61,181 bases of DNA from positions 1-61,181 of IMG/VR virus record IMGVR_UViG_3300035698_020078; one strand, 5' to 3'. The DNA comes from a virus. Positions 4,273 through 56,540 of the stretch are shown here, one piece after another. Position 1 is the stretch's first letter. Each line of letters begins with the position of its first letter. The position numbers were made by a program, and so were the translations under genes. Below the pieces are notes generated by a model, which searched no databases, was not told the DNA's origin, and was given only the letters and a program-made list of their open reading frames with translations.

Positions 4273-4453
4273 ATGTCGCCTATGTCACGGCTCCTATTAT
4301 GGCGGAGAGAATAATCTCATGCTGCGGGCCGGTAGCGAAAAAGAACTGCCTGACGAAGTGTCGATTGTGGTTCGCAAAGTAGCAAGATGCACAAGTTGCA
4401 AAGAAGTCGCAGACAGGACATATGGTAGTAAACGTAAAAGATTTGAACGCTAA
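4241..4453 (+). CDS. small zinc-ribbon protein (70 aa)
   Basis: Two CxxC pairs (C12-C15 and C50-C53) frame a 34-residue loop, the pattern of a zinc ribbon. The C-terminus is basic. It overlaps the end of the sigma-like gene by 32 bases and the start of the next gene by the same amount. Such proteins often bind nucleic acid or RNA polymerase, and the sigma-like neighbour makes a transcription role plausible, but no family is recognised. Confidence 0.68.
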   Translation: MRTPKTLVLIECRLCHGSYYGGENNLMLRAGSEKELPDEVSIVVRKVARCTSCKEVADRTYGSKRKRFER

Positions 4454-5378
4454 AGACTATACTCACGTTTCCCAATTAGAAGAAGGGAAAGTGTATGAGC
4501 AGATTTTCCATGTGGCTGGCGTTGACCATAATCTCGGCATGGTTGCTGGAAATGGCACGGCTTTCGCACAGATATTATTGTCTGACGTAAGTGGTGAAGT
4601 CAACCTGGTGATCTGGGGATTCACAAAAGGGCTCGTTGAGATTGGGGATTTTGCTCGCATTCGTGCCGAAGTAAAGGTCTTCAAGGGCGAACGCCAACTG
4701 ACATGTCAGAGCTTCAACGTAACTAAAATTGACAGAACCCCAGAGAATTTCTACGATTACTTTGCGGGGGTCACTGATTCGCAGCTAGACTCTTATGCCC
4801 TGGAGCTTCAAGAGACACTGGAATATCTAACAGACGACGACTATCGCACCTTTTCGTGCGTAGCCATTCATAACTACAATATTATCAAGCTATTGCGTCA
4901 ATCTCCGTTTGGTCTTAGAGGACCATTAGCATACAGGGGCGGACTACTGGTGCATGTTGTCCATTCAATCAGGCTCGCACGAGCCGCCTGCAATCAGGCA
5001 CGCATTCTGGAGCCAAACATAAATGAGTCACTTGTTTTAATGGCTTGTGCTTTTAGACAGTTGGGCTATTGCACAACGACCGAGTTTGTTGACGGAACAC
5101 TAACTGAGAAAGATTCTTACAGGCTGAATGGCATTGAGAAATCTACCTTCGCCATCCTGACTCAAATCTTTTCAAGCAATAGAGAGTGTATCTCGCCAGA
5201 AAAGTATAACGCACTAGTTAATTGCTGTAACTATACCGACATTTTAGTTTTGGAAGGCAAGATTGCTGATAATTGTGCTTTGTTAGCAAAAACTATCGAC
5301 TTTGGCGTGTTCAAACTTAGTAATATAAAAAACCAGCACTGGGTCAATAACTACTACGTGGGTCACCTGTGCGAATAG
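4422..5378 (+). CDS. OB-fold plus degenerate HD protein (YhaM-like)
   Basis: The 318-residue protein has an OB-fold nucleic-acid-binding region (about 15-100) followed by a helical domain containing GGLLVHVVH (173-181). This is the order of the YhaM/CBF1 3'-5' exoribonuclease family, in which an OB fold feeds RNA to an HD hydrolase. The first histidine (H178) is kept. At the position of the defining HD pair (LLHDIGK in YhaM) the sequence reads FRQLGY (211-216), so the His-Asp pair is replaced by Arg-Gln. The protein probably binds RNA or DNA but may not hydrolyse it. An AGGA lies six bases upstream of the chosen ATG. Confidence 0.65.
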   Translation: MVVNVKDLNAKDYTHVSQLEEGKVYEQIFHVAGVDHNLGMVAGNGTAFAQILLSDVSGEVNLVIWGFTKGLVEIGDFARIRAEVKVFKGERQLTCQSFNVTKIDRTPENFYDYFAGVTDSQLDSYALELQETLEYLTDDDYRTFSCVAIHNYNIIKLLRQSPFGLRGPLAYRGGLLVHVVHSIRLARAACNQARILEPNINESLVLMACAFRQLGYCTTTEFVDGTLTEKDSYRLNGIEKSTFAILTQIFSSNRECISPEKYNALVNCCNYTDILVLEGKIADNCALLAKTIDFGVFKLSNIKNQHWVNNYYVGHLCE

Positions 5379-5959
5379 ACGCCCTTAAAGAAATAGTCAA
5401 AGATTGCACTAAGTGTGATTTATGCAAGACTCGCACCCAGGTTGTGTTCGGAGAGGGTAGTTCGTCTCCAAAGGTTCTATTAGTTGGTGACTCGCCAGAT
5501 GACGTTGAGGATGCCGAGGGCAAGATGTTCCTCGGAGACGGCGGAATCAAATTGGACAGAATCCTAGCCTATCTCGGAACCGACAGATCGGAAGTGTATC
5601 TGACCAACGCCATTCTGTGCAATACTCCATTAAATAGATATCCTCGACAAGAGGAATTAGCAGCCTGTAGATGGCGTCTTTTAGAGCAAATTAACATTCT
5701 AAAGCCAGACCTAATCGTGGCCCTGGGTCGAGCGGCATTTGAGCAGCTTCGGGGCGAAAAGATTAAAGGTGCCTTAAGCAATTTCTTTCCCGACAAAATA
5801 GACGCCGATTGGATTAAGTATACTACGGACGAACATGAGTGTATAATGGCTGTAACTTATCATCCTAATTATCATTTAAGATCACCAGAAAGAGCATATA
5901 AGGTAACTTTATCCCATTGGAAGAAAATAAAGGAATGGTTAAATGAATATCAGCAGTGA
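5369..5959 (+). CDS. uracil-DNA glycosylase, family 4 (Fe-S type)
   Basis: The 196-residue protein has the four cysteines that hold the 4Fe-4S cluster of family-4 UDGs (C13, C16, C84, C100). It also has the active-site loop at 40-48 (GDSPDDVED, related to the usual GEAPGxxED), an NR.P..EE..AC block and the late HPNY (H165-Y168) motif. These enzymes remove uracil from DNA; some phage relatives act in replication or repair. The loop differs from the family consensus where a Gly is replaced by Asp, so substrate preference may differ. GTG is used as start, within the end of the previous gene. Confidence 0.85.
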   Translation: MRIDALKEIVKDCTKCDLCKTRTQVVFGEGSSSPKVLLVGDSPDDVEDAEGKMFLGDGGIKLDRILAYLGTDRSEVYLTNAILCNTPLNRYPRQEELAACRWRLLEQINILKPDLIVALGRAAFEQLRGEKIKGALSNFFPDKIDADWIKYTTDEHECIMAVTYHPNYHLRSPERAYKVTLSHWKKIKEWLNEYQQ

Positions 5960-6719
5960 CCACCGGAAGGCATGTACCGTTAATACTAAAGCAATTAACG
6001 CGGGACTCCTAGAATGTAAAGAAGGTGTATCAACGCTAGAAATTGATGCCGCAATCGAAAAATATATTCGTGAAAACGACTGTATTCCAGCCTTCAAGAA
6101 TTACCGTCCGCTAGGCACCCCATATGCTTTTCCAGCAACGGCCTGCATTAGCGTTAATGACGCTATGGTTCACGGAATTCCAAACGACTATAGGCTTGTT
6201 AATGGAGACATCGTAACAGTAGACGTTGGAACCAATTGCAACGGATGGTTCGCAGATTCGGCCAGAACAATAGTAATTGGCAAAAACCCAGAGGCAGAAA
6301 AACTTGCTTACGCTGCGGAAGCCGTGCTGTTTGCTCAGATCGAAGAAGTCAAGCACGGCGTTACGATTACAGATTTAATTCTAGCTTCGGAGCGAGAGGC
6401 CAAAAAACTAGCGGTTAATATCATGTCTCCTTGGTGCGGACACGGAATTGGACAAAAACTGCATGACGAACCGCTCATTCCCGCTACAATTGATAGTAGA
6501 CTGAGTAGCTTGAAAAGAAAGTTAGAGGAGAAGAAATATCGCCGCGTCACTCTTATTGAGGGGCAGACGATCTGCCTTGAGCCAGTGATCAGTTTCGGTC
6601 AAGACAACATGTTTCTTGACAAGGATGGCTGGACCGTCCGACAAACAGAAAAAGCATTGACCGCTCACTCCGAGCGATGTGTATTAGTAACTAGCAACGG
6701 ATTTGAAATTCTATCGTAA
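5943..6719 (+). CDS. map: methionine aminopeptidase
   Basis: The 258-residue protein matches type I methionine aminopeptidase, which removes the initiator methionine from new proteins. All five metal ligands are present (D94, D105, H167, E213, E244), as is the substrate histidine H77. Length fits the short bacterial type I form, with an insert of about 20 charged residues near 185-203. It overlaps the UDG gene by 17 bases and is followed with one shared base by a peptide deformylase gene, so the phage carries both steps of N-terminal methionine excision. It has no N-terminal zinc-finger extension. Confidence 0.95.
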   Translation: MNISSDHRKACTVNTKAINAGLLECKEGVSTLEIDAAIEKYIRENDCIPAFKNYRPLGTPYAFPATACISVNDAMVHGIPNDYRLVNGDIVTVDVGTNCNGWFADSARTIVIGKNPEAEKLAYAAEAVLFAQIEEVKHGVTITDLILASEREAKKLAVNIMSPWCGHGIGQKLHDEPLIPATIDSRLSSLKRKLEEKKYRRVTLIEGQTICLEPVISFGQDNMFLDKDGWTVRQTEKALTAHSERCVLVTSNGFEILS

Positions 6720-7378
6720 TGGAAACAAACTCAGAAGATATCACCGAGCCGCAAGAAGTCGCTCCGCAGGTCGAAGAGATTTCTCGATCAACAGCATTGC
6801 GTCAGGCGGTTATTGCCGTTAACGACCAACGCTTCCCGCTACTCGAAATGGAGTCGTCAGACTGTAGCGTGCCTCTTAGTGCCGATGACGAAGATGCACT
6901 GTCCCTAATGAATGACGTTATGGAAGAACTGAACGACGAAGCGGCGGGATTAGCTGCTGTTCAGATCGGCTATCCAAAACGAATCTTTATTCTGAGGAAA
7001 GACGGCGAGAACGTCGCTTACATCAATCCTTCTATTGTGGCAGTTAGTTCTAGTGCCAAAAAAGATTTTGAAGCCTGTCTGTCTATTCCCGGCGGCGTTG
7101 TTCGTACTGCTCGCCCAAAGTGGGTTACTCTGCAATTCATCAATATTGACGGCAGGGTTGAAACCGAAACCTTTAGTGGGTTCTGGGCTCGTGCTGTCAT
7201 GCATGAAATGGATCACCTAAACGGTACGCTGATCGTCAAGTATTTAGAAAAAGAAATTTCCAAGCGTGTCAATACGACTAGTTTTGGAATGAAGGTTACC
7301 CCCGCAAAAATTAACCAAATCGCACGGCGTCGTGCAAAAAACCGTCGAGCCAAAATGGCCCGTCGAACCAATAGATGA
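6719..7378 (+). CDS. def: peptide deformylase
   Basis: The 219-residue protein contains the three deformylase motifs: GLAAVQIG (77-84), EACLS (118-122, where most have EGCLS) and HEMDH (162-166). These provide the metal ligands C120, H162 and H166 and the catalytic E163. It removes the formyl group from initiator fMet, the step needed before methionine aminopeptidase can act, and the aminopeptidase gene is directly upstream. An acidic N-terminal extension of about 25 residues and a very basic C-terminal tail (ARRRAKNRRAK) are additions to the family core; the tail might contact the ribosome. Confidence 0.95.
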   Translation: METNSEDITEPQEVAPQVEEISRSTALRQAVIAVNDQRFPLLEMESSDCSVPLSADDEDALSLMNDVMEELNDEAAGLAAVQIGYPKRIFILRKDGENVAYINPSIVAVSSSAKKDFEACLSIPGGVVRTARPKWVTLQFINIDGRVETETFSGFWARAVMHEMDHLNGTLIVKYLEKEISKRVNTTSFGMKVTPAKINQIARRRAKNRRAKMARRTNR

Positions 7379-7393
7379 TACCTGGGAGGTAGC

Positions 7394-8056
7394 ATGAATA
7401 AGCTTGATTTCCTTCTGCCGAAAGAAGGACAAGAGGAGTACGTGGCATCCATTCGTGAGAATGTAGTGACCATCTGTACTGGACTAGCGGGAACCGGCAA
7501 GACAATCCTAGCGTTGTCGGAGGGCATTAGATTGCTCAAGAACAATAATAGCGGCATTGAAAAGATTATCATTGTTCGTCCTTATATGTCCAGTAATACG
7601 GGCGAAAAGCTCGGTGCCTTGCCTGGCGATCTAAAGGACAAGGTGACTCCCTATGCTCTGGCGGTCAGAGACAATCTTGAGACTATTTTACATCGCAAGC
7701 ACGACATTGACGAGGCGATGAAGAAAATTGAGTTCTCTATCTTAAGTATGTGTAGAGGTAGATCGTTTAACAACGCCTATATCATTATCGAAGAGGCACA
7801 AAATGTTCCTCTGAATGGAGATGCTATGAAAATGTTGTTGACAAGGATCGGAAAAAACTCTAAGATGGTAATTCAAGGAGACCTTGATCAGATGGACATT
7901 TACTCCGAGGATAGTGCATTGCCGGAAACACTTAACATTTTACAAGATGTTCCCAATGTAGGTATCGTAGAAATGACGGATATCAAATGTGTTCACAGGT
8001 CGGGTATTGTAAGAGATATCTTGCAAGCATACGACAGAAAAAACCACCACCACTAA
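7394..8056 (+). CDS. phoH: PhoH-like ATPase
   Basis: The 220-residue protein has a P-loop GLAGTGKT (30-37), the VRPYMSSNTGEKLGALPGDL stretch typical of PhoH (61-80) and a Walker B IIIEEAQN (131-138), with Glu for the more usual Asp. PhoH proteins are P-loop ATPases related to helicase cores and very common in phages; the role is thought to lie in RNA or nucleotide metabolism and is not settled. A GGGAGG ribosome binding site lies just upstream of the ATG. The C-terminus ends with four residues of Asn and His, a natural His run. Confidence 0.93.
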   Translation: MNKLDFLLPKEGQEEYVASIRENVVTICTGLAGTGKTILALSEGIRLLKNNNSGIEKIIIVRPYMSSNTGEKLGALPGDLKDKVTPYALAVRDNLETILHRKHDIDEAMKKIEFSILSMCRGRSFNNAYIIIEEAQNVPLNGDAMKMLLTRIGKNSKMVIQGDLDQMDIYSEDSALPETLNILQDVPNVGIVEMTDIKCVHRSGIVRDILQAYDRKNHHH

Positions 8057-8058
8057 AA

Positions 8059-8619
8059 ATGGCTAAAAGAATTATTCACGAGTGCGATCTTACCAAAAGA
8101 GAGTACGACCCAGAGGACACTGTTAAGATCACTATTACTCGAAAGAGTAAGAAGGGTCGTGCATATGAAATTTCCTCCGACGCCGCTGAAATGCTTGAAA
8201 AACAATTGGTAGCTGGCGAAGAGCTTGTCGAAGGATGGGACTTTCATGGTGTCGAACAGATATACTCTCCTCAGGAAGTTTCTCCTGCTCCTAGACAAGA
8301 AACAAAATTTATTGCCGAAGAAGAAGATAGTGAGCTTAAAGCTATTCTTGAAAAGAAACGTCGTATTCAAGCTAACGATGAAGAAGAACACCCTAAGCGT
8401 GCGGCTAAAAAGGAAGACTGGTCTGACTACCAACCGAAGAGAAGGCTCGGTGACTGTATGCACATGAATAAAGGCGGCATTCAATTTAAAGATGACGCCG
8501 CTTATAGAGTGTGTAAAAATTGTGGTGCAAAAGTGCCAGAGAAAAAACGTACCGAACAAAGCGAATACATGGGTGCCAAGCCCGCCGCTGGTACAAAATT
8601 AAAGGACTATAACAAATGA
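8059..8619 (+). CDS. hypothetical protein with C-terminal Cys/His zinc site
   Basis: The ATG at 8059 lies three bases after the phoH stop and is preferred over an in-frame ATG at 7987 inside phoH. The 186-residue product has a highly charged, Lys/Glu-rich middle and a C-terminal part with GDCMHM and CKNCG, probably one zinc-binding site. No family is recognised. It overlaps the lipoprotein gene by four bases. Confidence 0.65.
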   Translation: MAKRIIHECDLTKREYDPEDTVKITITRKSKKGRAYEISSDAAEMLEKQLVAGEELVEGWDFHGVEQIYSPQEVSPAPRQETKFIAEEEDSELKAILEKKRRIQANDEEEHPKRAAKKEDWSDYQPKRRLGDCMHMNKGGIQFKDDAAYRVCKNCGAKVPEKKRTEQSEYMGAKPAAGTKLKDYNK

Positions 8620-9173
8620 AAAAATGGCTAGGAATTATTGGCCTCGTATCGGTTCTAGGTATGGCCCCACTTGCGGGTTGTATATCTACTCCTGATGGCC
8701 CAGGTGTTGAATTTATTGAGGAATTTAACGAGCAGGAGTTCTTTAAGTTTCAGACTTACTTACGTCTTAGTGTGAAAATCGCTACAAATAGACTCCTAAC
8801 TGACGGTGACGTTACGATGGAAGAAATTAACATGATCGCAGACATTGTTGATCAAGCTACTAACACGCCTATCTTTGAAAGCACTACTTCTTTAATTGGC
8901 CCTCTTCTTGAGGATGCGGGACTAATCGAAGACGAGATTGCCCTTATGGTTCTAATTGTAGAACAAGAGCTTATTTCTCGCGGTGCCCTTGACTGGCTAG
9001 ACCCCATTACCGGGGCCGCTGGTCTTTCTCCGAGAACACGAGAACTGCTTACGACTATCGTAAGTACGCTGCGTGCTTCGGAACCCATTACTTTTGAGGA
9101 AGAGGCCGAAATGAGTGCTGCCATGCGTCAAGCAGAAGCAGAGGTTCAGTTTATCGACCTGTCTAGCAATTGA
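8616..9173 (+). CDS. predicted lipoprotein (185 aa)
   Basis: The N-terminus has two lysines, a hydrophobic stretch and a lipobox LAGC (19-22), so it should be exported, lipidated on C22 and anchored in a membrane. The mature part is acidic and mostly helical, with no known domain recognised. Phage lipoproteins of this kind are known to work as superinfection-exclusion factors, receptor blockers or outer-membrane spanins. The gene is far from the holin-like gene in transcription terms, so spanin is only one option. Overlap of four bases with the upstream gene suggests co-translation. Confidence 0.72.
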   Translation: MKKWLGIIGLVSVLGMAPLAGCISTPDGPGVEFIEEFNEQEFFKFQTYLRLSVKIATNRLLTDGDVTMEEINMIADIVDQATNTPIFESTTSLIGPLLEDAGLIEDEIALMVLIVEQELISRGALDWLDPITGAAGLSPRTRELLTTIVSTLRASEPITFEEEAEMSAAMRQAEAEVQFIDLSSN

Positions 9174-9643
9174 TTGTAATACTGTTTAACGAAAACGGTT
9201 ACCACGTTTCGGGGGAGAACGTTGAGGCAACTCAGCGAGTCTCCCCCGCGACGACTAATGAAGGGGACAAAATCTTTCAGCCGTTACATCATACGTACAA
9301 AGTGCTACACTTGGCACTGTCGGAAATTCACAGCAAGTCTATTCAGGACGACGTTGTGGTGTACGGTGACTCTAGAATTATTGACGAACTCAATGGAGTC
9401 ACTAAACCGCTAGACGAAGTATGCGAACAATGGGTCAATGTAATACGACGACACGTTTTGCCAGAAATCAAGGCAATCGTTTTCTTTCGCAAGAAGACAG
9501 TCAACGACAAAATTACAACAGCCCACACAAAAATGATCCCCGACGAGCGAACGTCTCTCCCGCAGCTAGAGGATCAATCAATCAAAACAAAGAGAGAGGC
9601 CGTAAAAAGACTCAAGGAGAATTGGTTCTATGGCAAAAAATGA
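9170..9643 (+). CDS. RNase H-fold-like protein
   Basis: The start is TTG, overlapping the lipoprotein stop (TTGA). The 157-residue protein begins with a beta strand and hairpin (VILFNENGYH), then has a helix (HTYKVLHLALSEIH) leading into VVVYGDSRIIDELNG, then another helix-strand unit. This matches the RNase HI order, in which a helix precedes a strand ending in DS. The usual first catalytic Asp would be Asn here (FNENG), so catalysis is doubtful. The call rests on pattern only. Confidence 0.42.
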   Translation: MIVILFNENGYHVSGENVEATQRVSPATTNEGDKIFQPLHHTYKVLHLALSEIHSKSIQDDVVVYGDSRIIDELNGVTKPLDEVCEQWVNVIRRHVLPEIKAIVFFRKKTVNDKITTAHTKMIPDERTSLPQLEDQSIKTKREAVKRLKENWFYGKK

Positions 9644-16176: not shown

Positions 16177-16460
16177 GGCTTTACAATGGTTGGGCGAATA
16201 ATGTCGCTTAAGATCAAATCTAGCTGCTTTTTAATCTCGGCAATGATCTCGTGAGCATCAAAGGTTCTCGCAAGAGTAACCTCCATAGTGTACTGCCCGG
16301 CCATTCCAAAGGCATCAATTCCATCCATATCAAGCATTTTCTGAATGCCAGTATCTACTTCTTTGATTCGCTTAGAAAGCGTGAGCATGAAACGGTGCGG
16401 AATGTCTTCGCCGTTTTGATCTTTGGCGAAAGTAAAGATGTATTTTTCAGTAGTTTTCAT
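16173..16460 (-). CDS. hypothetical protein (95 aa)
   Basis: A small protein of mixed alpha/beta type directly after RNR, overlapping its stop by four bases. No motif is recognised; there are no cysteines, so it is not a glutaredoxin-like electron donor for RNR. Translational coupling to RNR is likely. Confidence 0.6.
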   Translation of the reverse strand: MKTTEKYIFTFAKDQNGEDIPHRFMLTLSKRIKEVDTGIQKMLDMDGIDAFGMAGQYTMEVTLARTFDAHEIIAEIKKQLDLILSDIIRPTIVKP

Positions 16461-18418
16461 AATTCACATTGATCTCCATCACAAAAACGAGGACTTTGTG
16501 TATTTTCTTGGTATTGATCAAAATTGATCGGTTGAATATTTGCCGTCATTTCTTGGTACTGCTCCTCAGTGATAGTCTCGTATGGAGCCTGCTCGTAACC
16601 ATGATCGTTCAGAGGTAGGAAAGAAATACCCTTGAGGGAATCCTCGTTAAGCTCAAGTACATGCTTAATGTCATCTGCTTCTTGCTTGTTAAAAGTCACG
16701 GTAATAGAGACCTGATTATCGGCCCAGTACTTTTGGTACATGACGGCATTAGCAGTCTGCTCCCAAATCGACACTTCGTCCTTACCTTTCTTGAAAAAAT
16801 CTTCATGGATAGGGAATTCCACTACCATGGTTGACTCTTTCTGAGTAACGTCTGGCTCGACTTTGTAGCCAGCGGCCTCTGCCATACGCCAAAGGTTAGA
16901 ATGGATGCCTACGCGAATCCTGCGAATGTAGAACTCGGAGTGAGGGTAGTGGATGCCGGGCGGCTCGCCAGGTAGCAGACTAATCGTTCCACTCGGCTTA
17001 ACACTGGTCTTTTTAATACTGCGTGGTACGCCCAACCAGTTGGAGTACTGAATGTCTAACCCGTTAATAAACTCATATCCCTTGTCACACCATCGCGTCA
17101 ATTCGCGACGACCGTGACGACCAAACGCCTTAATGATACCACTCTGGCTCAATCCAATCCGACGATTCTTAGACATGACGGAATTGGTTTGCTCCCAATG
17201 CGTAGGAACAAGGGTCACAGTTTTTGCGTATAGATAAGCAATCTTAAGCGTTTCTAAAAACTCTTCCATGCTGTCGTGACGGGCGGGAAAAGTTTCTACT
17301 AGCGTGCAAAGCTCCAGGTGATGAAGAGTTTGTTCTAGACAAGGGTTACCACCGACGGCATCAATATCTAGCCAATTCGCCGGATCAATCATGCGGCCAA
17401 AGGCACGAGCATTGTAAAGCCATTCATAGCCAGGCTCTCCATTTACCGAAGTCTGTTCTGCATGCCATGAGTAATCCATGCCAATCTCTGCGAAAATACT
17501 ATTGTTTGAAGCCCAGCGATGATTTTTAAGCTTGGCCTTATCTTGCTTCATAAGGGAAAACGCTAAATCATCAGGGTCTCCGAACGCAATCTCGGCAGAA
17601 CGACGAACGTTACCGGCAACAACACATTTGCCAATAAAGTTTTGAATGTCCGTAATATCAACAGAGTTTAACTTACCACCAATTCGATTTTCTAGAGTCT
17701 CATGAATCTCAGAAAGCATAACACGCAAAGGCTCTGGTCCGCTAGCGGTCCCTCCAAAACCACGAATAGGTTCGCCCGCTCCTCTAATTTCGCTATAGTC
17801 AAACTCAGGAAGACCAGAATCCTCAATCAGATAAGCAGCAAGTAAAAGACGAAGTGCCTCAACCCAACCTTCGCGAGAATCGGGAATAACGTAGGTGTGC
17901 TTTAATAGTGCATTGGGTTGCATTACTGATGCTTGTTCGGACCCTTTGGTATCAAAGCCTACACCTACGCCAACCATCGACATATCCATCAAGAACGTAA
18001 AGGGCGTTAGCGGATCAGACGCTAAATACTGAGTGCTTGTAAAGGCACAATTGTTTAATGCAGCACCGCCACAGCGTTCAATGTAATCTGTTCCCATCGC
18101 CCATAGTCCACGACCGGGCGGAAGAAATTTGAATTCCCACATAAGCTCAAACATGCGTTTAGCTGTACGCTGAGCCTTTCTCTCGTCCCAAGGAAGGCGA
18201 CATCTTTTGCAGTGATTTCTTTGAATAGAAAAACATCCCTCAACTACACGTTGACATGTTTCCCAGTATTCTTCTACGCGATCTCCCTCGATGTTACGTG
18301 CGTATGTTCGCTTGTAAGTGAAATAACCAACGGGACCCCAGTCGGGCTGCTTTCCTTTAAAACGCTTTAAGAATGAGTCGGGAAGAGAAAAACAATGGCG
18401 TGCGATATCAAAATTCAT
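16457..18418 (-). CDS. adenosylcobalamin-dependent ribonucleoside-triphosphate reductase (class II)
   Basis: The 653-residue protein resembles the monomeric class II enzyme of Lactobacillus leichmannii type. Key cysteines are all present with the right spacing: C124 in NNCAF, the radical cysteine C360 in NPCLE with E362, its partner C371 eleven residues later, and a C-terminal redox pair C646-x4-C651. It reduces NTPs to dNTPs and needs coenzyme B12, so the host must make or import cobalamin. It is somewhat shorter than the Lactobacillus enzyme. It overlaps both neighbours by four bases. Confidence 0.93.
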   Translation of the reverse strand: MNFDIARHCFSLPDSFLKRFKGKQPDWGPVGYFTYKRTYARNIEGDRVEEYWETCQRVVEGCFSIQRNHCKRCRLPWDERKAQRTAKRMFELMWEFKFLPPGRGLWAMGTDYIERCGGAALNNCAFTSTQYLASDPLTPFTFLMDMSMVGVGVGFDTKGSEQASVMQPNALLKHTYVIPDSREGWVEALRLLLAAYLIEDSGLPEFDYSEIRGAGEPIRGFGGTASGPEPLRVMLSEIHETLENRIGGKLNSVDITDIQNFIGKCVVAGNVRRSAEIAFGDPDDLAFSLMKQDKAKLKNHRWASNNSIFAEIGMDYSWHAEQTSVNGEPGYEWLYNARAFGRMIDPANWLDIDAVGGNPCLEQTLHHLELCTLVETFPARHDSMEEFLETLKIAYLYAKTVTLVPTHWEQTNSVMSKNRRIGLSQSGIIKAFGRHGRRELTRWCDKGYEFINGLDIQYSNWLGVPRSIKKTSVKPSGTISLLPGEPPGIHYPHSEFYIRRIRVGIHSNLWRMAEAAGYKVEPDVTQKESTMVVEFPIHEDFFKKGKDEVSIWEQTANAVMYQKYWADNQVSITVTFNKQEADDIKHVLELNEDSLKGISFLPLNDHGYEQAPYETITEEQYQEMTANIQPINFDQYQENTQSPRFCDGDQCEL

Positions 18419-19641
18419 TTACAAAACCTCTGCGGATTAAATAGTTCGTTTCCGATAATGTGACTTTTCTCAGCAACGAGGTAATCTTTTAGCACAAGAC
18501 TACTCATTAGGGAGTGAGAAAATCCGTAGCCATTAAAGCCACACATCATAAATTGGTTATGTCGATTGGGTACAGGGCCAATCAACGGTAGCCCGTCATT
18601 AGTCGCACACATAATGCCTGACCAAGTATGACTGAATTTAGTTCCTTTCAGAACTGGCAATGCTTTCATAGAGAAGTCTCGTAACTTGTCATAAATTGAC
18701 CGACTAATTTCTCCATCATATACAATACCTTCCTGTTGACCGCGAATACTTTGTCGCATACCGCCAACAAGAAGGCGTCCATCATGCAAGCGAAAGTACT
18801 CGCTGCCATTATTACAGCTAAGAGCCATCGTAGGTAGTGCTTCGATTACGTCATCACTTAAGGAATCGGTCGCAGCAATTTGCCCCCTAAAAGGACTCAT
18901 CCAGTCTTTTGTTTCGGGCAAAAGATCATGCGTGTAGGCGTTAGTACAATACACTACACGTTTGGCCCGAATGATTCCTTTGTGACGAATTGAAACAGCC
19001 AAACTATCGCCTGTCGTCGGAACCACAGATTCTACCTGACAGTTAGAGAGAATTCTTTTTCCGCGTCTACAAACCAAGTCCGCTAATCCGTTTGTTAGTT
19101 TATACGGATTGAAAGTAGATTCATTGGGAACAAACATTCCTCCAATAAAAGCATCTGACTTGGTAATCACGCACGCCTCTTTATCAGACAACATGACGCA
19201 ATCAACCCCCGTGTGTTCGCGTATAAAGGCTGACTCTTGCTTTAAAAGAGAAAGATCATCTACGTTTTGGGCAAGTCGCAGCCCGCCCGTCTCGCGAAAC
19301 TGACAGTTAAAGTTGGCCGAACGAAGTCCTTTCGTCATGCGACCAATACTTTCAGCCATAAATTTGGCGTATTGAATACCCTGCTCGACCGGCAGTTCGC
19401 TGAATAAGGGTTGACCCCTCATTATTAGATGCCCACTACTGCGGCCCGAGGCATGAAAGCCCACCGTCTCTTCTTCGACTAGATATGTATCAGTAAGCCC
19501 AGCGTTAATTAGCTGATACAAAAGGGTGAGTCCAATAATTCCGCCGCCGATAATAAGAACGTCCGCGTTTTTTATGACGCTGGACGTTGTTCCGTAACGG
19601 GTCGGATGAGTATCGAACCAATAATTCGACTGATTAACCAT
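18415..19641 (-). CDS. FAD-dependent oxidoreductase, DAO family
   Basis: The 408-residue protein has the Rossmann fingerprint IIGGGIIGL (30-38), an ASGRSSGH FAD-contact block (about 64-71), and C-terminal GLPLIGPVPN and GFNGYGFSHS blocks, all typical of the DAO/glycine-oxidase/PuuB group. These enzymes oxidise amines or amino acids, or process modified nucleobases (MnmC domain). The substrate cannot be read from the sequence. A DAO oxidase is unusual in a phage and sits between a zinc-ribbon gene and RNR. A role in nucleotide or DNA-base modification is possible, but no hydroxymethyl-dU kinase or transferase is visible here. Confidence 0.85.
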   Translation of the reverse strand: MVNQSNYWFDTHPTRYGTTSSVIKNADVLIIGGGIIGLTLLYQLINAGLTDTYLVEEETVGFHASGRSSGHLIMRGQPLFSELPVEQGIQYAKFMAESIGRMTKGLRSANFNCQFRETGGLRLAQNVDDLSLLKQESAFIREHTGVDCVMLSDKEACVITKSDAFIGGMFVPNESTFNPYKLTNGLADLVCRRGKRILSNCQVESVVPTTGDSLAVSIRHKGIIRAKRVVYCTNAYTHDLLPETKDWMSPFRGQIAATDSLSDDVIEALPTMALSCNNGSEYFRLHDGRLLVGGMRQSIRGQQEGIVYDGEISRSIYDKLRDFSMKALPVLKGTKFSHTWSGIMCATNDGLPLIGPVPNRHNQFMMCGFNGYGFSHSLMSSLVLKDYLVAEKSHIIGNELFNPQRFCK

Positions 19642-41001: not shown

Positions 41002-42028
41002 TGATAGTCATCCCATTGTGATAGTGCTGCATTTTAGGGGTCGCCTGTCCCGTCATGCATAAGTAAATGTTTCCGTATTCTTCCCTAGCAAGAACCTTAC
41101 TGTAAAATGGATCATCTTTCCAGTTGACAGTAACATTTGGCTTGTGAGAACTAATCATACTCGGCAGTGGCTTTCCATCTTCCGCAAAGTAAATATCAAG
41201 CCAGGGATTTGGTCCATCGTAAGACAAGACCGGCTCAGTTCCATCAAACCAATCTGTAACCTTTTGATCAAACTTCTTGTTAGCTCCACCATGGGCGGCA
41301 AGTTCTTTCTCATAGTACTCCTGTTTCTCCTTCATGATTTCGTTCATGCCACGACGAGCGTAGCCATAATGATAAATGAAGAAGTCATTCAACATAACGC
41401 GGCGGTGCTGGTAATGAGGAGAAAAGTAAGTGCAGTGACCAGCCGGATCGGTCACAACAGGATGACTATTGTATTTCATGCCACGCACGTACTTAAAGAT
41501 GCGTTGATGCTGCGGTTGCCATTCGGGGCCAGGAACGGCAATATGATTACAGTCTCCATAGAAATGTAGAAAGCTAGGAACAAACTCGCAAGCGTGCGGG
41601 TTTAAATCGATAGCACGCCGTAAGCGTCTAATATCCTCTGGAAGATAAAACTCGTCAGCGTCATTGATAATCAACCAGTCGCCAGGAACAGACATGTCGA
41701 GGAATGTTTGCTTCATTTCCTCTAAGTTTTTCCATGGCTTTTTAATGGAGATTACTAGTACTTTATTGTCGGGATCTTTATTTGCTTTAAAGTCCGCAAT
41801 GATCTCGGCGGTGCGATCCGTAGAGTGGCCATCCTTTGTAGAGTTGGGGCGACTCTCGACTGCACCCTCAATAACGATAATACGGTCTACCTCGTCGTAG
41901 ATCGATCCAAGGACAGCTTCCGCAAACTCCTCCTCATTATGCATTTGAATACATTGAACAAGGCGAATAGGGCGATTGACACGATCGGCAATCGACTTCA
42001 TTTGGGGTTCGTAATAGATTTGATTCAT
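40994..42028 (-). CDS. glycosyltransferase family 2-like
   Basis: The 344-residue protein has a HNEEEFAEAVLGSI block, a RIIVIEGA strand, and a DWLIINDADEFYLP motif, in which DAD is the metal-binding DxD. A C-terminal HYQHRRVMLNDFFIYHYGYARR region is seen in GT2-like proteins that act on glycans (GT92/GT2-like). Donor and acceptor are unknown. It overlaps the Acb2-like gene by eight bases. Confidence 0.85.
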   Translation of the reverse strand: MNQIYYEPQMKSIADRVNRPIRLVQCIQMHNEEEFAEAVLGSIYDEVDRIIVIEGAVESRPNSTKDGHSTDRTAEIIADFKANKDPDNKVLVISIKKPWKNLEEMKQTFLDMSVPGDWLIINDADEFYLPEDIRRLRRAIDLNPHACEFVPSFLHFYGDCNHIAVPGPEWQPQHQRIFKYVRGMKYNSHPVVTDPAGHCTYFSPHYQHRRVMLNDFFIYHYGYARRGMNEIMKEKQEYYEKELAAHGGANKKFDQKVTDWFDGTEPVLSYDGPNPWLDIYFAEDGKPLPSMISSHKPNVTVNWKDDPFYSKVLAREEYGNIYLCMTGQATPKMQHYHNGMTINE

Positions 42029-43263
42029 TGTTCTAACGTTTGTTTGTCTCCCTCGAATTGAACGAAGCCACTTTTCGCGTAGCTTTCAACAGCCTTCTCT
42101 ATCTGCTCACAGATTTTTTCTGAAACCCTTCTGTAGTCAAATCTATCGGCAACGTTCTTGGCGTTCTCTCGCCTATTAAGTACGCTCTGCCATTCTTGTG
42201 CGTTTTGCTCATTTAACTGACCGGCCTCGTGACCTTTCTTAAGCATGTGAAACCTTTGCATGGTAATAGCCATTTCTGCAACAGACGGCTCAAAACATTG
42301 TTCAAGACCAGTGAATAGTCCTGGATCCTGATGTGGCATATTGTAGAAGAAGCCCATTGATCCGCTATAGACTAAGGCATTGTCTGGCGTAACAAACTCG
42401 GCCAGTCCGGTTTGATTATGACTAATGACCGTATTGCCATAGGCTAAGGCATCAAATACAGGAATACCCCATCCTTCTGCCCGACTAGAACAAACATATG
42501 CGTCACCGCGAGTATGCAGACCAGCGATTTCTTCATCGGTCATGGTATACACGACTGGAAGAACCGGAGGAAGCTCGGCAGGAATTCGACACTTTGCCTT
42601 AACGTCGTTAATGTATCCCTTGACAATTTCCATGTCGTTGTCGCGGCCCTGCATATTGACGTAAGTCTTAAGAACTAATAGTACGTCATCTTTCATACCA
42701 GCAAATGCGGCATAGTAAGCACGAAGAAGCGAATCAACCCCCTTCTTAGAACTTAGCTGGCAAATGTTATAGAACACAGTACGATCACCGGCCTGATCAA
42801 TGGCAAAAGGAGTGACTTCTTTTTCGTACAAATCTTTGTCACACGGCGGCGACGCGACTAGAATAGGCTTCTGAATACCAGACTTAAGTAGGGTCTCGGC
42901 GTTATATCTAGAAGGCACAATTAGAAAGTCAAATTCGTTTGCTTTCTGGGCCCAGGTGACTTGCAATCGATCGGTCTCAAAGAATGTGTAAAGTCCATTG
43001 ACGATCCCCGGAACTGGGTTGGCTTCAATATTGCACGTAGTCATTTGAATGGCTACGTCTACGTCCATTAGGTCTTTCTCAAGACACTCTGTCATCCATT
43101 GTGGTGCTTCAAATAATTGACCAGCATCTAGCTGATCATATTTGAGACTACGAGCAACTACATCAATTTTATCACTTTCAAGCAAGGCCCTCATGAACTC
43201 GCGAGAAGCATGGGCAAAGCCACTAAAGTCTTGAAGGGGTCCAGTAAATAATAGCTTCATCAT
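42025..43263 (-). CDS. glycosyltransferase family 4 (GT-B)
   Basis: The 412-residue protein has an N-terminal GPLQDFSGFAHASREF acceptor-side motif, ICQLSSKKGVDSLLRAY at the start of the donor half and SSRAEGWGIPVFDALAYGNTVISHN, the classic GT4 donor motif (E-x7-E-like with E and D). A C-terminal helical extension of about 70 residues is present. Start is ATG-ATG at 43263, overlapping the previous stop. Confidence 0.9.
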   Translation of the reverse strand: MMKLLFTGPLQDFSGFAHASREFMRALLESDKIDVVARSLKYDQLDAGQLFEAPQWMTECLEKDLMDVDVAIQMTTCNIEANPVPGIVNGLYTFFETDRLQVTWAQKANEFDFLIVPSRYNAETLLKSGIQKPILVASPPCDKDLYEKEVTPFAIDQAGDRTVFYNICQLSSKKGVDSLLRAYYAAFAGMKDDVLLVLKTYVNMQGRDNDMEIVKGYINDVKAKCRIPAELPPVLPVVYTMTDEEIAGLHTRGDAYVCSSRAEGWGIPVFDALAYGNTVISHNQTGLAEFVTPDNALVYSGSMGFFYNMPHQDPGLFTGLEQCFEPSVAEMAITMQRFHMLKKGHEAGQLNEQNAQEWQSVLNRRENAKNVADRFDYRRVSEKICEQIEKAVESYAKSGFVQFEGDKQTLEQ

Positions 43264-46121
43264 ACAAATTCCTGAGTTTTTCTTTCGGGTGCTTTAACGC
43301 CACTGATTTGTCTACGGACATTATCTCGATACTTACTAGCGTCCGATTGCTGGTTGCCGATTGAAACAAACTGATTCATAAGCTGCTCGCGGGTCGCCCC
43401 CATTTCTAAATGCTTCACCCATGTCTTAGCTCCTTCCGAATCAACGGAAGGATATTTAAGAACTGCCGTATACAGCCAATCAACAAACTGCTCATTACTT
43501 AATCCAGCAGGCACTTGAGCGGGAACAATATCTACATGGCTTTCAATAGGAGAATTCCAGGTGGTCTCACGATTGAGAGGCTTAATGTTCTCCAAAACGT
43601 AATCCCACTGTTTCCATAGCTTATTCCAATCGTAGTTTTCTTCGGCACACTCTCTCGCCTCGACGCCCATTTTCTTGAGACGTTGCTCGTCTGACAGAAG
43701 GGCGAACATTTTGTCCGCAAGATCACTAACGTCCGGGTGAGCACGCTTACAGCTAGTCTCTGGCTCGTAGTAATATCGGCCAACATCAATCACTTCGCCG
43801 CCCTTATCTAAGGTGTAATTGGACTCGTTCATTCCGATATCCTCGAAGTGATCGTAGTCGGGATAACGTCCCTTTTCTCTCATTGCCGTGTAGTCCGTCA
43901 CAAGGGTAGGTACACCGCAAGCTTTGGCTTCCTGAATAGGCATGCCGTCTCCTTCACAGATAGAGCACTGAACATATAGGTCTAGAGAATTATAGAGCTT
44001 AGAAAGTTCTTCTCTGCTAAAACCAACGCTAGTATTCGGCGGTGACGCCTCCTGTTGTCCACAGTGAGGACACGGAAGCTTGATACGCCCATCTTGAATC
44101 GGCTGATTATGCAAGTTCATCGCAAAGGTCATGGAGCTTTGGCCGCACCCATGACAATACATGCTTTGCATGATGCTACCACGAATTCCTTTGTGATAGT
44201 GATCCATCCACGGGTACGACTCAAGACGCATGATATGTCTCGGGTAATCAAACGAGTGAGCATTATCTGGCCACGAAGAATGAATAACAAGCACAGCCTT
44301 GTCGGCTACGTCATTACCCTTGTAACGCTTCTTCATTAATGCGAAAGCGTCAATGAGATCGGGGTATAGCTTGCGGCTTTGATTACGCATGACCGTTCCA
44401 ACAATAGGAAGACCGGGATTTAAATTCCAATAGTCACGAACTTCTTTCTTGTCCATCGGCTTAAAAGTCTCAAGATCAACCCCAGGACGCATAGCCTTAG
44501 GAAAAATCTTCATCTGACGTTTACCATTAGGAAGAGTTACGGTTTGATTTCTAAGAGTATGAACACCGTAATCAGAATAAGCTAATACGACATTTGCATT
44601 CTCGTAAGTTTTAATCCATTCTTCTAGCTGTGGCTCGGCGTCTACGGTTGGCATAATACAATTATGTACGGCACAAGTTGTTATAAACGAATGATCTTTT
44701 TCAACTTCAAGGTCATAAACTCGAAGCTCGTCGTTGTATAATTTTATATCTACAACGGGCATAAATAAATAATTCTGTTTATTCAAAACTCTTGTAAACT
44801 GTTTTTGAGCTAGTTGAGTATTTCTAGATTGATAACTTATTAATTCCTTTTTAAAATCTAAAACACCATGATCGCTAAGACGAATAGTATATCCTTCTTG
44901 ATTTCTACGATCACCTAGTCGCACTGAATATCCTAATCTTGATAATAAATTACTAACCTGACAAGCCAACGTCTTAGATTTACTAAACATTTCAATAGAC
45001 GGCGTGTTATGATTAGTTTTAGTAACACAACCGTCACCATCAAAGTATCCATTCAGCAAAATACGTGCTTGTCGATCATCAAGATTATAAAAGCACGAAG
45101 GTATAATTTTATTGCCACAAGAGTCATAAAATTGACTAAAATACGTCTGTAATTTCTTACTATTGATGCGAATACTTGTTCCTTTATCAGACGTTTGTTT
45201 ATGTTCTATCTTATAATCAGAAAAGAATTCACTAATTCTATTTTGCGTCTCAATTTCATCAATATGAAAAGCAAACGATATACGATTACGATCTCTAGCA
45301 CAACCGTCGGCTAAAAAATGACCAATAACCCATAGTAATTCATCATCAACATCAACATGCTCAATGTCTTCTTTATCGCATGGTACTAACAAATAGTCCC
45401 CTTTTTGTACGTCAGATGCTTTTATAAACCTAGCATTTTCAATTGACACCGCAGACGCTACTGTATCGTATCTCCTGCGATCGTTATTCCATGGTCGCAC
45501 GCACTTAGGAACTACTAGAATTTCATGGTCAGCAGTACTAGTCATGGGTTCGGCCATACCTTCCGCTGTCAAACGAACCATGTTACCATTATAAATATGA
45601 CTAGATGTATTTGTCACGCAACGAGATTGACCAGTGTGAGAAATAACGGTATCACCAATATTAATATCTTCAATATTAGAAACTTGATTATATTGTCTTC
45701 GAACCGGAGTGCCAGCAGGAAAACACCATTTATACCAATCTCTAAAGGCACTACGTTCTTGGTACTCAAGCATCCACCAGTCACGAATATCTACAACAAT
45801 GTCTGGCTGAAAATCAGCGAGAACACCGTCAAACTTATACTCTCCAAACTGGTTGGTGTTTTGACCACGCCCTCTTGGGTGAGCACACGGCTGATTAAAA
45901 GCTCGTGCCTCTTCGTCGTTCGTGGGCATTACTCCGTAAAACTTCCAGCGGCCCTGAATGAACTCATGGGCCCGAACGTCGTCCTGACGAACATAAGAGC
46001 CTAACTCCGCAAGTTCATATTTTCCAGTAGCAGCCAAACGAACCAAAAGTTCACGATAGTAAGTTGAAAAACCAGTGTTCAAAAAACTAGCTTCACCAAT
46101 AAATAAAATTCTCTTTTTCAT
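43260..46121 (-). CDS. glycosyltransferase (GT-B) interrupted by an intein
   Basis: The reading frame of 953 codons holds a glycosyltransferase in two exteins. Residues 1-132 are the N-terminal Rossmann half. Residues 488-953 complete it, with VGTVMRNQSRKLYPDLIDAF and a donor site CSICEGDGMPIQEAKACGVPTLVTD, the GT4 E-x7-E pattern. A Cys-rich zinc knuckle (CHGCG and CPHCG) lies between, and a C-terminal region of about 90 residues resembles DUF4214-type repeats. Splicing out 355 residues would give a 598-residue enzyme joined as WYKW|CIMPT. The start is TAATG-coupled to the sigma-like gene. Confidence 0.92.
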   Translation of the reverse strand: MKKRILFIGEASFLNTGFSTYYRELLVRLAATGKYELAELGSYVRQDDVRAHEFIQGRWKFYGVMPTNDEEARAFNQPCAHPRGRGQNTNQFGEYKFDGVLADFQPDIVVDIRDWWMLEYQERSAFRDWYKWCFPAGTPVRRQYNQVSNIEDINIGDTVISHTGQSRCVTNTSSHIYNGNMVRLTAEGMAEPMTSTADHEILVVPKCVRPWNNDRRRYDTVASAVSIENARFIKASDVQKGDYLLVPCDKEDIEHVDVDDELLWVIGHFLADGCARDRNRISFAFHIDEIETQNRISEFFSDYKIEHKQTSDKGTSIRINSKKLQTYFSQFYDSCGNKIIPSCFYNLDDRQARILLNGYFDGDGCVTKTNHNTPSIEMFSKSKTLACQVSNLLSRLGYSVRLGDRRNQEGYTIRLSDHGVLDFKKELISYQSRNTQLAQKQFTRVLNKQNYLFMPVVDIKLYNDELRVYDLEVEKDHSFITTCAVHNCIMPTVDAEPQLEEWIKTYENANVVLAYSDYGVHTLRNQTVTLPNGKRQMKIFPKAMRPGVDLETFKPMDKKEVRDYWNLNPGLPIVGTVMRNQSRKLYPDLIDAFALMKKRYKGNDVADKAVLVIHSSWPDNAHSFDYPRHIMRLESYPWMDHYHKGIRGSIMQSMYCHGCGQSSMTFAMNLHNQPIQDGRIKLPCPHCGQQEASPPNTSVGFSREELSKLYNSLDLYVQCSICEGDGMPIQEAKACGVPTLVTDYTAMREKGRYPDYDHFEDIGMNESNYTLDKGGEVIDVGRYYYEPETSCKRAHPDVSDLADKMFALLSDEQRLKKMGVEARECAEENYDWNKLWKQWDYVLENIKPLNRETTWNSPIESHVDIVPAQVPAGLSNEQFVDWLYTAVLKYPSVDSEGAKTWVKHLEMGATREQLMNQFVSIGNQQSDASKYRDNVRRQISGVKAPERKTQEFV
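44661..45725 (-). mobile_element. intein with LAGLIDADG endonuclease domain
   Basis: The 355-residue insert starts with C133 in block A (CFPAGTPV) and has block B TADHEIL (197-202 region). Two LAGLIDADG-type helices follow (VIGHFLADGCA about 264-274 and LLNGYFDGDGC about 354-363), then block F (RVYDLEVEKDHSFIT) and the C-terminal AVHN (484-487), followed by extein Cys488. All residues for class 1 protein splicing are in place (Cys1, block B TxxH, penultimate His, terminal Asn, +1 Cys). The DNA is visibly richer in A and T than both exteins. The nucleotide borders follow from codons 133 and 487. Confidence 0.94.
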
Positions 46122-54978: not shown

Positions 54979-55396
54979 CGTCAGACTCTCGTGCTTCCGT
55001 AATTAGATTCATTAGATCGTCAATCGTCACTTGTCCTCGAACCTCAACTAATACTATGTCGTTAACCTCACACCAAAAACGCTTACGCTGGTCTCTAGCA
55101 ACAGACTTTTCATACCCTTGTTTGTCGCCATGAAAAAACTTATTAAACTTATCGTGCTGCTCGCCCTGATACTCAAATGCAAGTTTATGATGCGGCATAA
55201 AAAAATCAATCCATAGGCGTTCCTCTGGAATAGGAAACTCCTCTAAGATCAAGGCACCAAAGCCGTAAACCTTCCTGATAAGTCTACCAAGAAGATATTG
55301 ACCATTGGACTTAGATTCTTCTCTCGATCGAACAGGATAGTTCGCAGGAAGAATCTCCAGTCTAATCTCTCTGTCACTCAGGGTCTTGAACTTCAT
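54971..55396 (-). CDS. EDxHD/Vsr-like endonuclease
   Basis: The 141-residue protein has IDFF (63-66) and AFEYQGEQH (73-81), with D64, E75, Q77 and H81, followed by DQRKRFWCEVNDIVLVEV. This matches the Vsr/EDxHD or DUF559-like nuclease fold, where D and E-x-Q form the metal site. Such proteins act as free-standing homing endonucleases or repair nucleases. It sits between recA and dnaB, a common place for both. Which of the two roles applies is not clear. Confidence 0.7.
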   Translation of the reverse strand: MKFKTLSDREIRLEILPANYPVRSREESKSNGQYLLGRLIRKVYGFGALILEEFPIPEERLWIDFFMPHHKLAFEYQGEQHDKFNKFFHGDKQGYEKSVARDQRKRFWCEVNDIVLVEVRGQVTIDDLMNLITEARESDDE

Positions 55397-56540
55397 TAAT
55401 CAGGCTATCCATAGGATCAACAGCCTCGGGAGAAAATGCCTCACTAAGCATTTTTGTTAAGATTTCAGTCAGTGTGGAATCCATCAGCAATTTTCTAGCT
55501 GCTTGGAATTGGGACATGCAGGCGGAAACTACTTCGTCATTCTCTTCGAGAAACTGGCCGGTCTCCCTGTTCATCTTCGGTAGATAAACCTGCTTGCCGC
55601 CCTTGCCGCCCATCCTTAGAATGCCAAAATTACAGCACTGTTGAATAAGCTCCATTTCTTTAAAGACGCCGTTCTTAAACAATACCAAGAACGACCCTTC
55701 GTTGCCGTCGGGAGCAACTTTGTTTTTGACAATCTTGTAACGAATTTCAACACCAATACGCTCGCCATCGGGGTCCACGATAGTCTGTGCTTTACCGGGC
55801 TTTTGTAGTTTAATACGTTGAGAAGCGTAGAACTTTAAAGCTCGACCGCCAGGCGTATCAGAGGGGTCGCCATACATCGTGATCTTATCTCGCATTTGAT
55901 TAACGAAGATCAACGCAACCTTATTTGTCTCGGAGGTATCAATGAGCTTTCTCATAGCGTCAGACATTAGCTTTGCCAGATTGCCAACCTTCTGCTCTCC
56001 AATTACACCAGACAAAACAGCGTCTGGTTGAGCGGCATCGATCGAGTCTAGGATTGCCACGCCTCGCGGACACATGCTGGAAAACTTCCTCATGACTTCT
56101 AAGCCCTGCTCTCCATTCTTGGCGTTAACAATCCAGAATGGACAGTTTTCGGAAACCTTTCCATTTGCCATCGCTTCCAGGGCTTCATCTAGGTATGGAC
56201 GAAGACTGCGAATGGTTCGCATGAGAGATAAGTTAAGGTTTTTCTCCATATTAACGAACAGTACTTTTTTACCGTTTCTAATAGCTTGCCCAGCTACCTC
56301 AAGGGTTAGTGTTGTCTTGCATGTGCCCTCGTCTCCAAAAACTTCTGTAATTCTTCCTTCTGGAAATGGAATACAGAGGTCATAGTCCAGATTAAAGGAG
56401 CCTGATCGATTTGGATTGGGGTCCCCAATTTCATGAGCTTCCATTAAACGAACGTCGTCGTTCTCAACTTCTTGTTTAAAGAAATTGAAGTTAACGTCCC
56501 CATGATCAACTGTTTCCGCCTTAGTTTTTTTCTTCGCCAC
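55374..56540 (-). CDS. recA: RecA-like recombinase
   Basis: The 388-residue protein is a full-length RecA with a P-loop GDEGTCKTT (69-77), a VAILDSIDAAQP Walker B-like strand, an IFVNQMRDKITMYGDPSDTPGGRALKFYAS region (the L2/ssDNA-binding signature) and an acidic tail. The P-loop is unusual, as Cys74 replaces the second glycine of GxxxxGKT, and the usual E-x-x-G-K-T is otherwise kept. Catalysis may be altered. It would drive strand exchange for phage recombination. It follows the small gene 56521-56958 with an overlap. Confidence 0.9.
   Translation of the reverse strand: MAKKKTKAETVDHGDVNFNFFKQEVENDDVRLMEAHEIGDPNPNRSGSFNLDYDLCIPFPEGRITEVFGDEGTCKTTLTLEVAGQAIRNGKKVLFVNMEKNLNLSLMRTIRSLRPYLDEALEAMANGKVSENCPFWIVNAKNGEQGLEVMRKFSSMCPRGVAILDSIDAAQPDAVLSGVIGEQKVGNLAKLMSDAMRKLIDTSETNKVALIFVNQMRDKITMYGDPSDTPGGRALKFYASQRIKLQKPGKAQTIVDPDGERIGVEIRYKIVKNKVAPDGNEGSFLVLFKNGVFKEMELIQQCCNFGILRMGGKGGKQVYLPKMNRETGQFLEENDEVVSACMSQFQAARKLLMDSTLTEILTKMLSEAFSPEAVDPMDSLINEVQDPE

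Follow-up and report, generated by a model that had tools for sequence, protein, structure and literature searches.

Peptide deformylase (PDF) and, after it, methionine aminopeptidase (MAP) act on nascent chains at the ribosomal tunnel exit, deformylation being a prerequisite for the removal of methionine (PMC8185961), and for this reason the coupled synthesis of the two enzymes makes biochemical sense. That phages encode PDFs is well established (PMC5591237; PMC7162821), and a review includes in a list homologues of methionyl aminopeptidase from phages or viral metagenomes (PMC10452541). In E. coli, binding of PDF to the ribosome is mediated by helix alpha-3, and according to a 2017 study the C-termini of all viral PDFs identified are shorter and do not include the ribosome-interacting region (PMC5591237). 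On the side of the host, a single mutation in its methionine aminopeptidase (MetAP) is enough to stop cos-type phages in Streptococcus thermophilus, where the block is at a late step, and in S. mutans (PMC6761271), which shows that phage production can be limited by methionine excision. Searching the open-licence literature, we found no description of MAP and PDF as a unit. The map and def genes of E. coli do not lie next to each other.

The locus studied here lies on a 61-kb IMG/VR fragment, the whole of which we call the window, and belongs to a lineage of bacterial viruses that are large and uncultured. Encoded in the window are a DnaE-type DNA polymerase, a DnaB-like helicase, a primase, a UvsX-like recombinase and a ribonucleotide reductase, together with a sigma factor, all within a large gene set; tRNA genes were not found in it. 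Sixteen related IMG/VR contigs, 63-183 kb in length, carry the pair as well, and the terminase of one of them is at best approximately 24% identical, over most of its length, to those of the phages in a collection of 50,697 records. Bacterial contamination was considered and rejected, since the block recurs in these 16 viral contigs, shares its contig with a terminase in 10 of 14 cases searched, and is absent from the 80 best bacterial def hits. The order of the genes in the block, UDG-MAP-PDF-PhoH, is conserved, and its features are as follows:

5369..5959, plus strand: family-4-type uracil-DNA glycosylase (UDG; Pfam UDG 8.6e-25; TIGR00758 136 bits, above cut-off)
5943..6719, plus strand: type I methionine aminopeptidase (MAP), 258 aa (Pfam, TIGR00500, active-site alignment, AlphaFold)
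6719..7378, plus strand: peptide deformylase (PDF), 219 aa (PF01327; three catalytic motifs; structure matches)
7268..7375, plus strand: C-terminal extension of PDF, approximately residues 184-219, strongly basic and conserved (alignment; tail comparison; model)
7394..8056, plus strand: PhoH-like ATPase, next after PDF (Pfam PhoH 7.4e-54; conserved gene order)

PhoH follows PDF in all 14 contigs checked for neighbours and UDG precedes MAP in 13 of them, L016 being the exception, while in the window the 3' end of UDG overlaps MAP by 17 nt. By reading, the window UDG has GDSPD at the catalytic GEAPG motif of its relatives and may therefore be inactive or altered. Ahead of UDG, and kept there across the lineage, is an OB-fold protein (4422-5378 in the window) that weakly matches the 3'-5' exoribonuclease YhaM. 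Farther away, the genes for ribonucleotide reductase, an FAD-dependent oxidoreductase (a strong match, DAO, 5.8e-56) and sugar metabolism lie together (16457-18418, 18415-19641 and 21-46 kb, minus strand), and this stretch, which also holds two nucleotide-sugar epimerases and several glycosyltransferases, is possibly a surface-sugar pathway. One glycosyltransferase gene (43260-46121, minus strand) is split by an intein-like insertion with matches to Hint/intein splicing and LAGLIDADG domains, an unusual host gene given that inteins usually sit in replication genes.

MAP matches Pfam Peptidase_M24 (E=1.7e-37) and, at 189.5 bits, exceeds the cut-off of 171.35 for the NCBIfam TIGR00500 type I methionyl aminopeptidase equivalog; as this family is clearly the best-scoring one, an M24 paralogue such as prolidase was rejected. 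Its AlphaFold model (pLDDT 95.6) shows the pita-bread fold with a TM of approximately 0.87 to E. coli MetAP, the 50 best among the PDB matches listed in a structure search with this model are MetAPs, and the nearest solved structures by sequence are those of E. coli and related MetAPs. What is more, E. coli residues H79, D97, D108, H171, H178, E204 and E235, of which D97, D108, H171, E204 and E235 are the metal ligands, correspond to H77, D94, D105, H167, H174, E213 and E244 of MAP, and the five ligands, as well as H77 and H174, are invariant in 14 aligned phage sequences. MAP is, judging from its sequence, a type I (M24A) methionine aminopeptidase with a predicted methionine-removing activity. 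Between the active-site residues H174 and E213 it bears an extra helix (residues 189-200; 6507..6542, plus strand), which is confident in the AlphaFold model and, according to the alignment, is specific to the lineage and not present in E. coli MetAP.

PDF, in turn, matches PF01327 with E=2.8e-31 and 108.7 bits (gathering cut-off 22.8), and its catalytic motifs AGLAAVQ, EACLS and HEMDH (consensus GxGLAAxQ, EGCLS and HExDH) are intact, the second one having Ala for Gly in nearly all members of the lineage. Residues G77, Q82, C120, H162, E163 and H166 are invariant across 14 aligned phage sequences, so that for both enzymes the claim of the first-pass annotation that all catalytic residues are kept is borne out. 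The score against NCBI TIGR00079, 91.3 bits, is below the naming cut-off of 103.95, which is an annotation threshold and no biochemical criterion, and the whole catalytic core is aligned. The nearest solved structures are PDFs, with which the predicted fold agrees in the core, and the protein is a peptide deformylase for which deformylase activity is predicted. In one relative, L181 (6741-7400), the third motif reads HEMAH instead of HEMDH, with both His and the Glu retained; the PDF of L180 (2328-2987) has the same score as that of L181, the HEMAH itself having been read in L181.

The stop of MAP and the start of PDF overlap by 1 nt in TAATG (6717..6721, plus strand), and since no Shine-Dalgarno sequence is evident ahead of the window PDF, the latter is likely translated by re-initiation; from this arrangement we infer that the two genes are translationally coupled. 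The overlap is 1-4 nt in about half of the 16 relatives, the others having mostly inserted ORFs or short gaps. In particular, seven relatives have an ATGA overlap (L004, L010, L016, L020, L021, L022 and L181), the genes are 21 nt apart in L011 and 65 nt apart in L009, L008 has a small ORF inserted, and an HNH-like ORF is inserted in L002, L003, L017, L018 and L019, the call in L017 and L019 being a by-eye likeness to the ORF of L002, itself a weak Pfam match. The two last-named contigs are more than 99% identical upstream, and their HNH-like ORFs (L017 9326-9937; L019 9274-9867) differ; their MAP genes (8494-9300 and 8453-9259, respectively) are only 62-72% identical over the last third and identical over the remainder. 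This drop in identity beside the differing ORF likely marks a co-conversion tract of a homing endonuclease.

How common is such an arrangement? The tandem pair had been placed at 5943-7378, and these coordinates proved exact; moreover, as it recurs in 16 other viral contigs, it is not a product of chance. MAP is immediately upstream of PDF and on the same strand in 16 of 16 relatives, in some with the intervening ORF, at a protein identity of approximately 38-54%, and the 14 records searched hold one M24 and one PDF gene each. Among 40 other PDF-bearing viral contigs, many of them short fragments, not one record contains an M24 gene, which supports the view that the pair is unusual among viruses, the scan for viral PDFs having covered the best 80 loci. 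Likewise, map is within 6 kb of def in none of the 80 best bacterial def loci among the matches listed. The scans of IMG/VR were profile-based, with short conserved patterns followed by tblastn, because of which more distant pairs could be missed; a single-sequence MAP scan of the viral contigs found nothing, and alignments were required. In an annotated phage collection the window MAP has few matches, at 35% identity or less and several of them in bacterial-looking records. Two phages with both genes are known to us, namely Vibrio phage V6Aob (PV454620.1; MAP 41188-41991, PDF 55062-55514, unlinked and approximately 13 kb apart) and the 595-kb phage LR756511 (approximately 100 kb apart), and hence carrying both is not unique. 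Since none of the papers found in the searched literature describes the pair, it does not count as widespread and already characterised. At this sensitivity, both genes in one virus are rare and the coupled pair is a hallmark of this lineage; as a fixed trait it was found only here, whereas PDF-bearing viruses themselves are common. Being cultured, V6Aob is a practical laboratory system for phage N-terminal processing.

The first-pass annotation had also singled out a very basic C-terminal tail of PDF, and this tail turned out to be both conserved in the lineage and extreme compared with those of other viral PDFs. Namely, the part that follows HExDH measures 46-58 residues in the lineage (53 beyond HEMDH in the window), with a net charge of +10 to +16, whereas the medians for the remaining viral PDFs are 26 residues and +2, and those for bacterial PDFs 32 residues and +5; the E. 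coli tail has 32 residues and +6. A few other viral PDFs (L071, L091 and L068) also have long or basic tails, which makes that of the lineage extreme and not unique. Its pattern is conserved, a linker FGMKxTPHR being followed by a basic helix RRAKNKRAKxxRR, and a helix is predicted with moderate confidence at residues 195-218 (7301-7372; pLDDT approximately 74-86). With this tail and predicted helix, the window PDF departs from the typical viral PDF with a short C-terminus (PMC5591237). The tail is not alignable to E. coli alpha-3 except in its basic character, and by analogy with alpha-3 the helix probably docks PDF at the ribosomal tunnel exit. When searched for by itself, the tail had no phage match and no convincing counterpart elsewhere in the window, and the idea of a module common to other proteins was rejected on these grounds.

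Both genes are under purifying selection (dN/dS of approximately 0.11 for each, L010 versus L020). Their pairwise distances correlate with those of four neighbouring core genes (0.94 for MAP and 0.84 for PDF), from which we conclude that the pair is old and vertically inherited; individual tree splits agree partially (5-7 of 11), as is expected of short proteins.

What could the substrates be? The suggestion that the pair serves the maturation of virion proteins gains some ground from the fact that, in three relatives, a methionine followed by a small residue (Met-small) begins 31 of the 46 genes after the terminase (67%) and 48 of the 132 elsewhere (36%; Fisher p=0.0005), where the genes were called from the first ATG and the orthologues are not independent. 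Among orthologues at conserved positions, the second residue stays small (MALx, M(A/P)GE, MSLx, MVxL, MGLE). On the other hand, the only candidate for the major head protein, which is weakly matched, starts with Met-Asn and is thus no predicted MAP substrate, so the suggestion is consistent with the data but tentative. Structural genes of phages that lack MAP are commonly enriched in Met-small starts, too. No wide bias of this kind is seen in the window's own proteins, 24-27% of whose ORFs start Met-small, and accordingly most early proteins are not predicted to be MAP substrates. A phage formyltransferase that would complete the cycle was looked for in 14 records and rejected, none being encoded, so the two enzymes rely on host formylation.

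It is our belief that MAP and PDF probably constitute a translationally coupled, ribosome-directed module of N-terminal methionine excision, which sustains protein maturation during infection. Phage PDF would deformylate nascent chains emerging from the ribosome, its long basic helix probably docking at the tunnel exit in the manner of E. coli alpha-3, and phage MAP would next remove methionine where the second residue is small; N-terminal processing would thereby be kept from limiting the output of phage proteins, with Met-small virion proteins the likely main clients. This explanation is directly supported by the intact genes and catalytic residues, the overlap, the conservation of the pair, purifying selection, the conserved tail and the predicted folds, whereas enzyme activity, ribosome docking, timing and benefit are what we infer. 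Against it stand the small number of Met-small early proteins, the Met-Asn capsid candidate and the PDF score below the TIGR00079 cut-off. In a bolder version, which we consider unlikely, the module would be self-sufficient, the PDF tail and the MAP insertion enabling it to oust the host's PDF and MetAP from the tunnel exit; if that were true, the virus would control the co-translational processing of all proteins made in infection.

Alternatively, the pair could replace host PDF and MetAP that are depleted by shut-off, inhibited or mutated, and be needed only then. The late arrest of cos-type streptococcal phages by one host MetAP mutation (PMC6761271) fits such a role, and a sigma factor of the phage's own and a large gene set are consistent with host shut-off, but the same streptococcal study found N-terminal processing unchanged by infection (PMC6761271) and most phages do without MAP, so that we regard this as decidedly unlikely. 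Very improbable, in our judgment, is an auxiliary pair that keeps up the turnover of a particular host protein, as in the hypothesis already proposed for phage PDF (PMC7162821) and exemplified by cyanophage PDF and photosystem II D1. The hypothesis exists, too, for host MetAP, whose expression is kept up in cyanophage infection (PMC10452541), but no photosynthesis genes were found among the window proteins scanned, which were part of the ORFs, and the pair sits amid DNA-metabolism genes (UDG, PhoH and AAA). Least probable of all is a repurposing of the PDF tail and MAP insertion for RNA or DNA binding or for translation regulation with catalysis secondary, for although the tail is far more basic than E. 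coli alpha-3 and has a conserved FGMK linker, and although MAP bears the extra helix, all catalytic residues are invariant despite approximately 50% MAP divergence in the lineage, and selection is purifying.

The preferred reading, a coupled excision module, bears on why phages encode deformylases. Since MAP has been kept beside PDF over that same divergence, complete methionine excision, and not deformylation alone, appears to have been selected, which provides a link to the host MetAP requirement of some streptococcal phages. Furthermore, docking at the ribosome can be put to a direct test by way of the PDF tail and the MAP insertion.

Finally, we compare the pair with known systems. Huge phages whose genomes encode PDF along with further translation factors (PMC7162821) represent a similar viral investment in late steps of translation, but the main text of that paper does not mention methionine aminopeptidase, which the present lineage has. 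V6Aob and LR756511 each encode, like the window, an M24 MAP and a PDF, but with the genes apart and in no operon, and they are unrelated lineages by best-hit identity (MAP 29-31%). The cyanophage and marine viral PDFs (S-SSM7 PDF, 3uwa; type 4 marine viral PDFs) are sequence relatives with the same GxGLAAxQ, E(G/A)CLS and HExDH motifs, but their C-termini are reported to be short and without the ribosome-interacting region (PMC5591237), while the tail of the window PDF is long and basic and a MAP is linked to it. The PDF of Vibrio phage Vp16T (5mtc), the smallest active PDF, was found by structure search and shares the viral PDF fold; it differs in having 137 residues, no C-terminal helices and no reported MAP partner. 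With E. coli Map and Def the pair has in common the type I MetAP fold and active site and the PDF core, and at the end of Def, too, there is a basic helix that binds the ribosome; that said, the phage MAP has its extra helix, and the phage PDF tail is longer and more basic and follows a conserved FGMK linker. The enzymes as such are therefore ordinary, and what is new is the coupled pair, its fixation in the lineage and the tail of the PDF.
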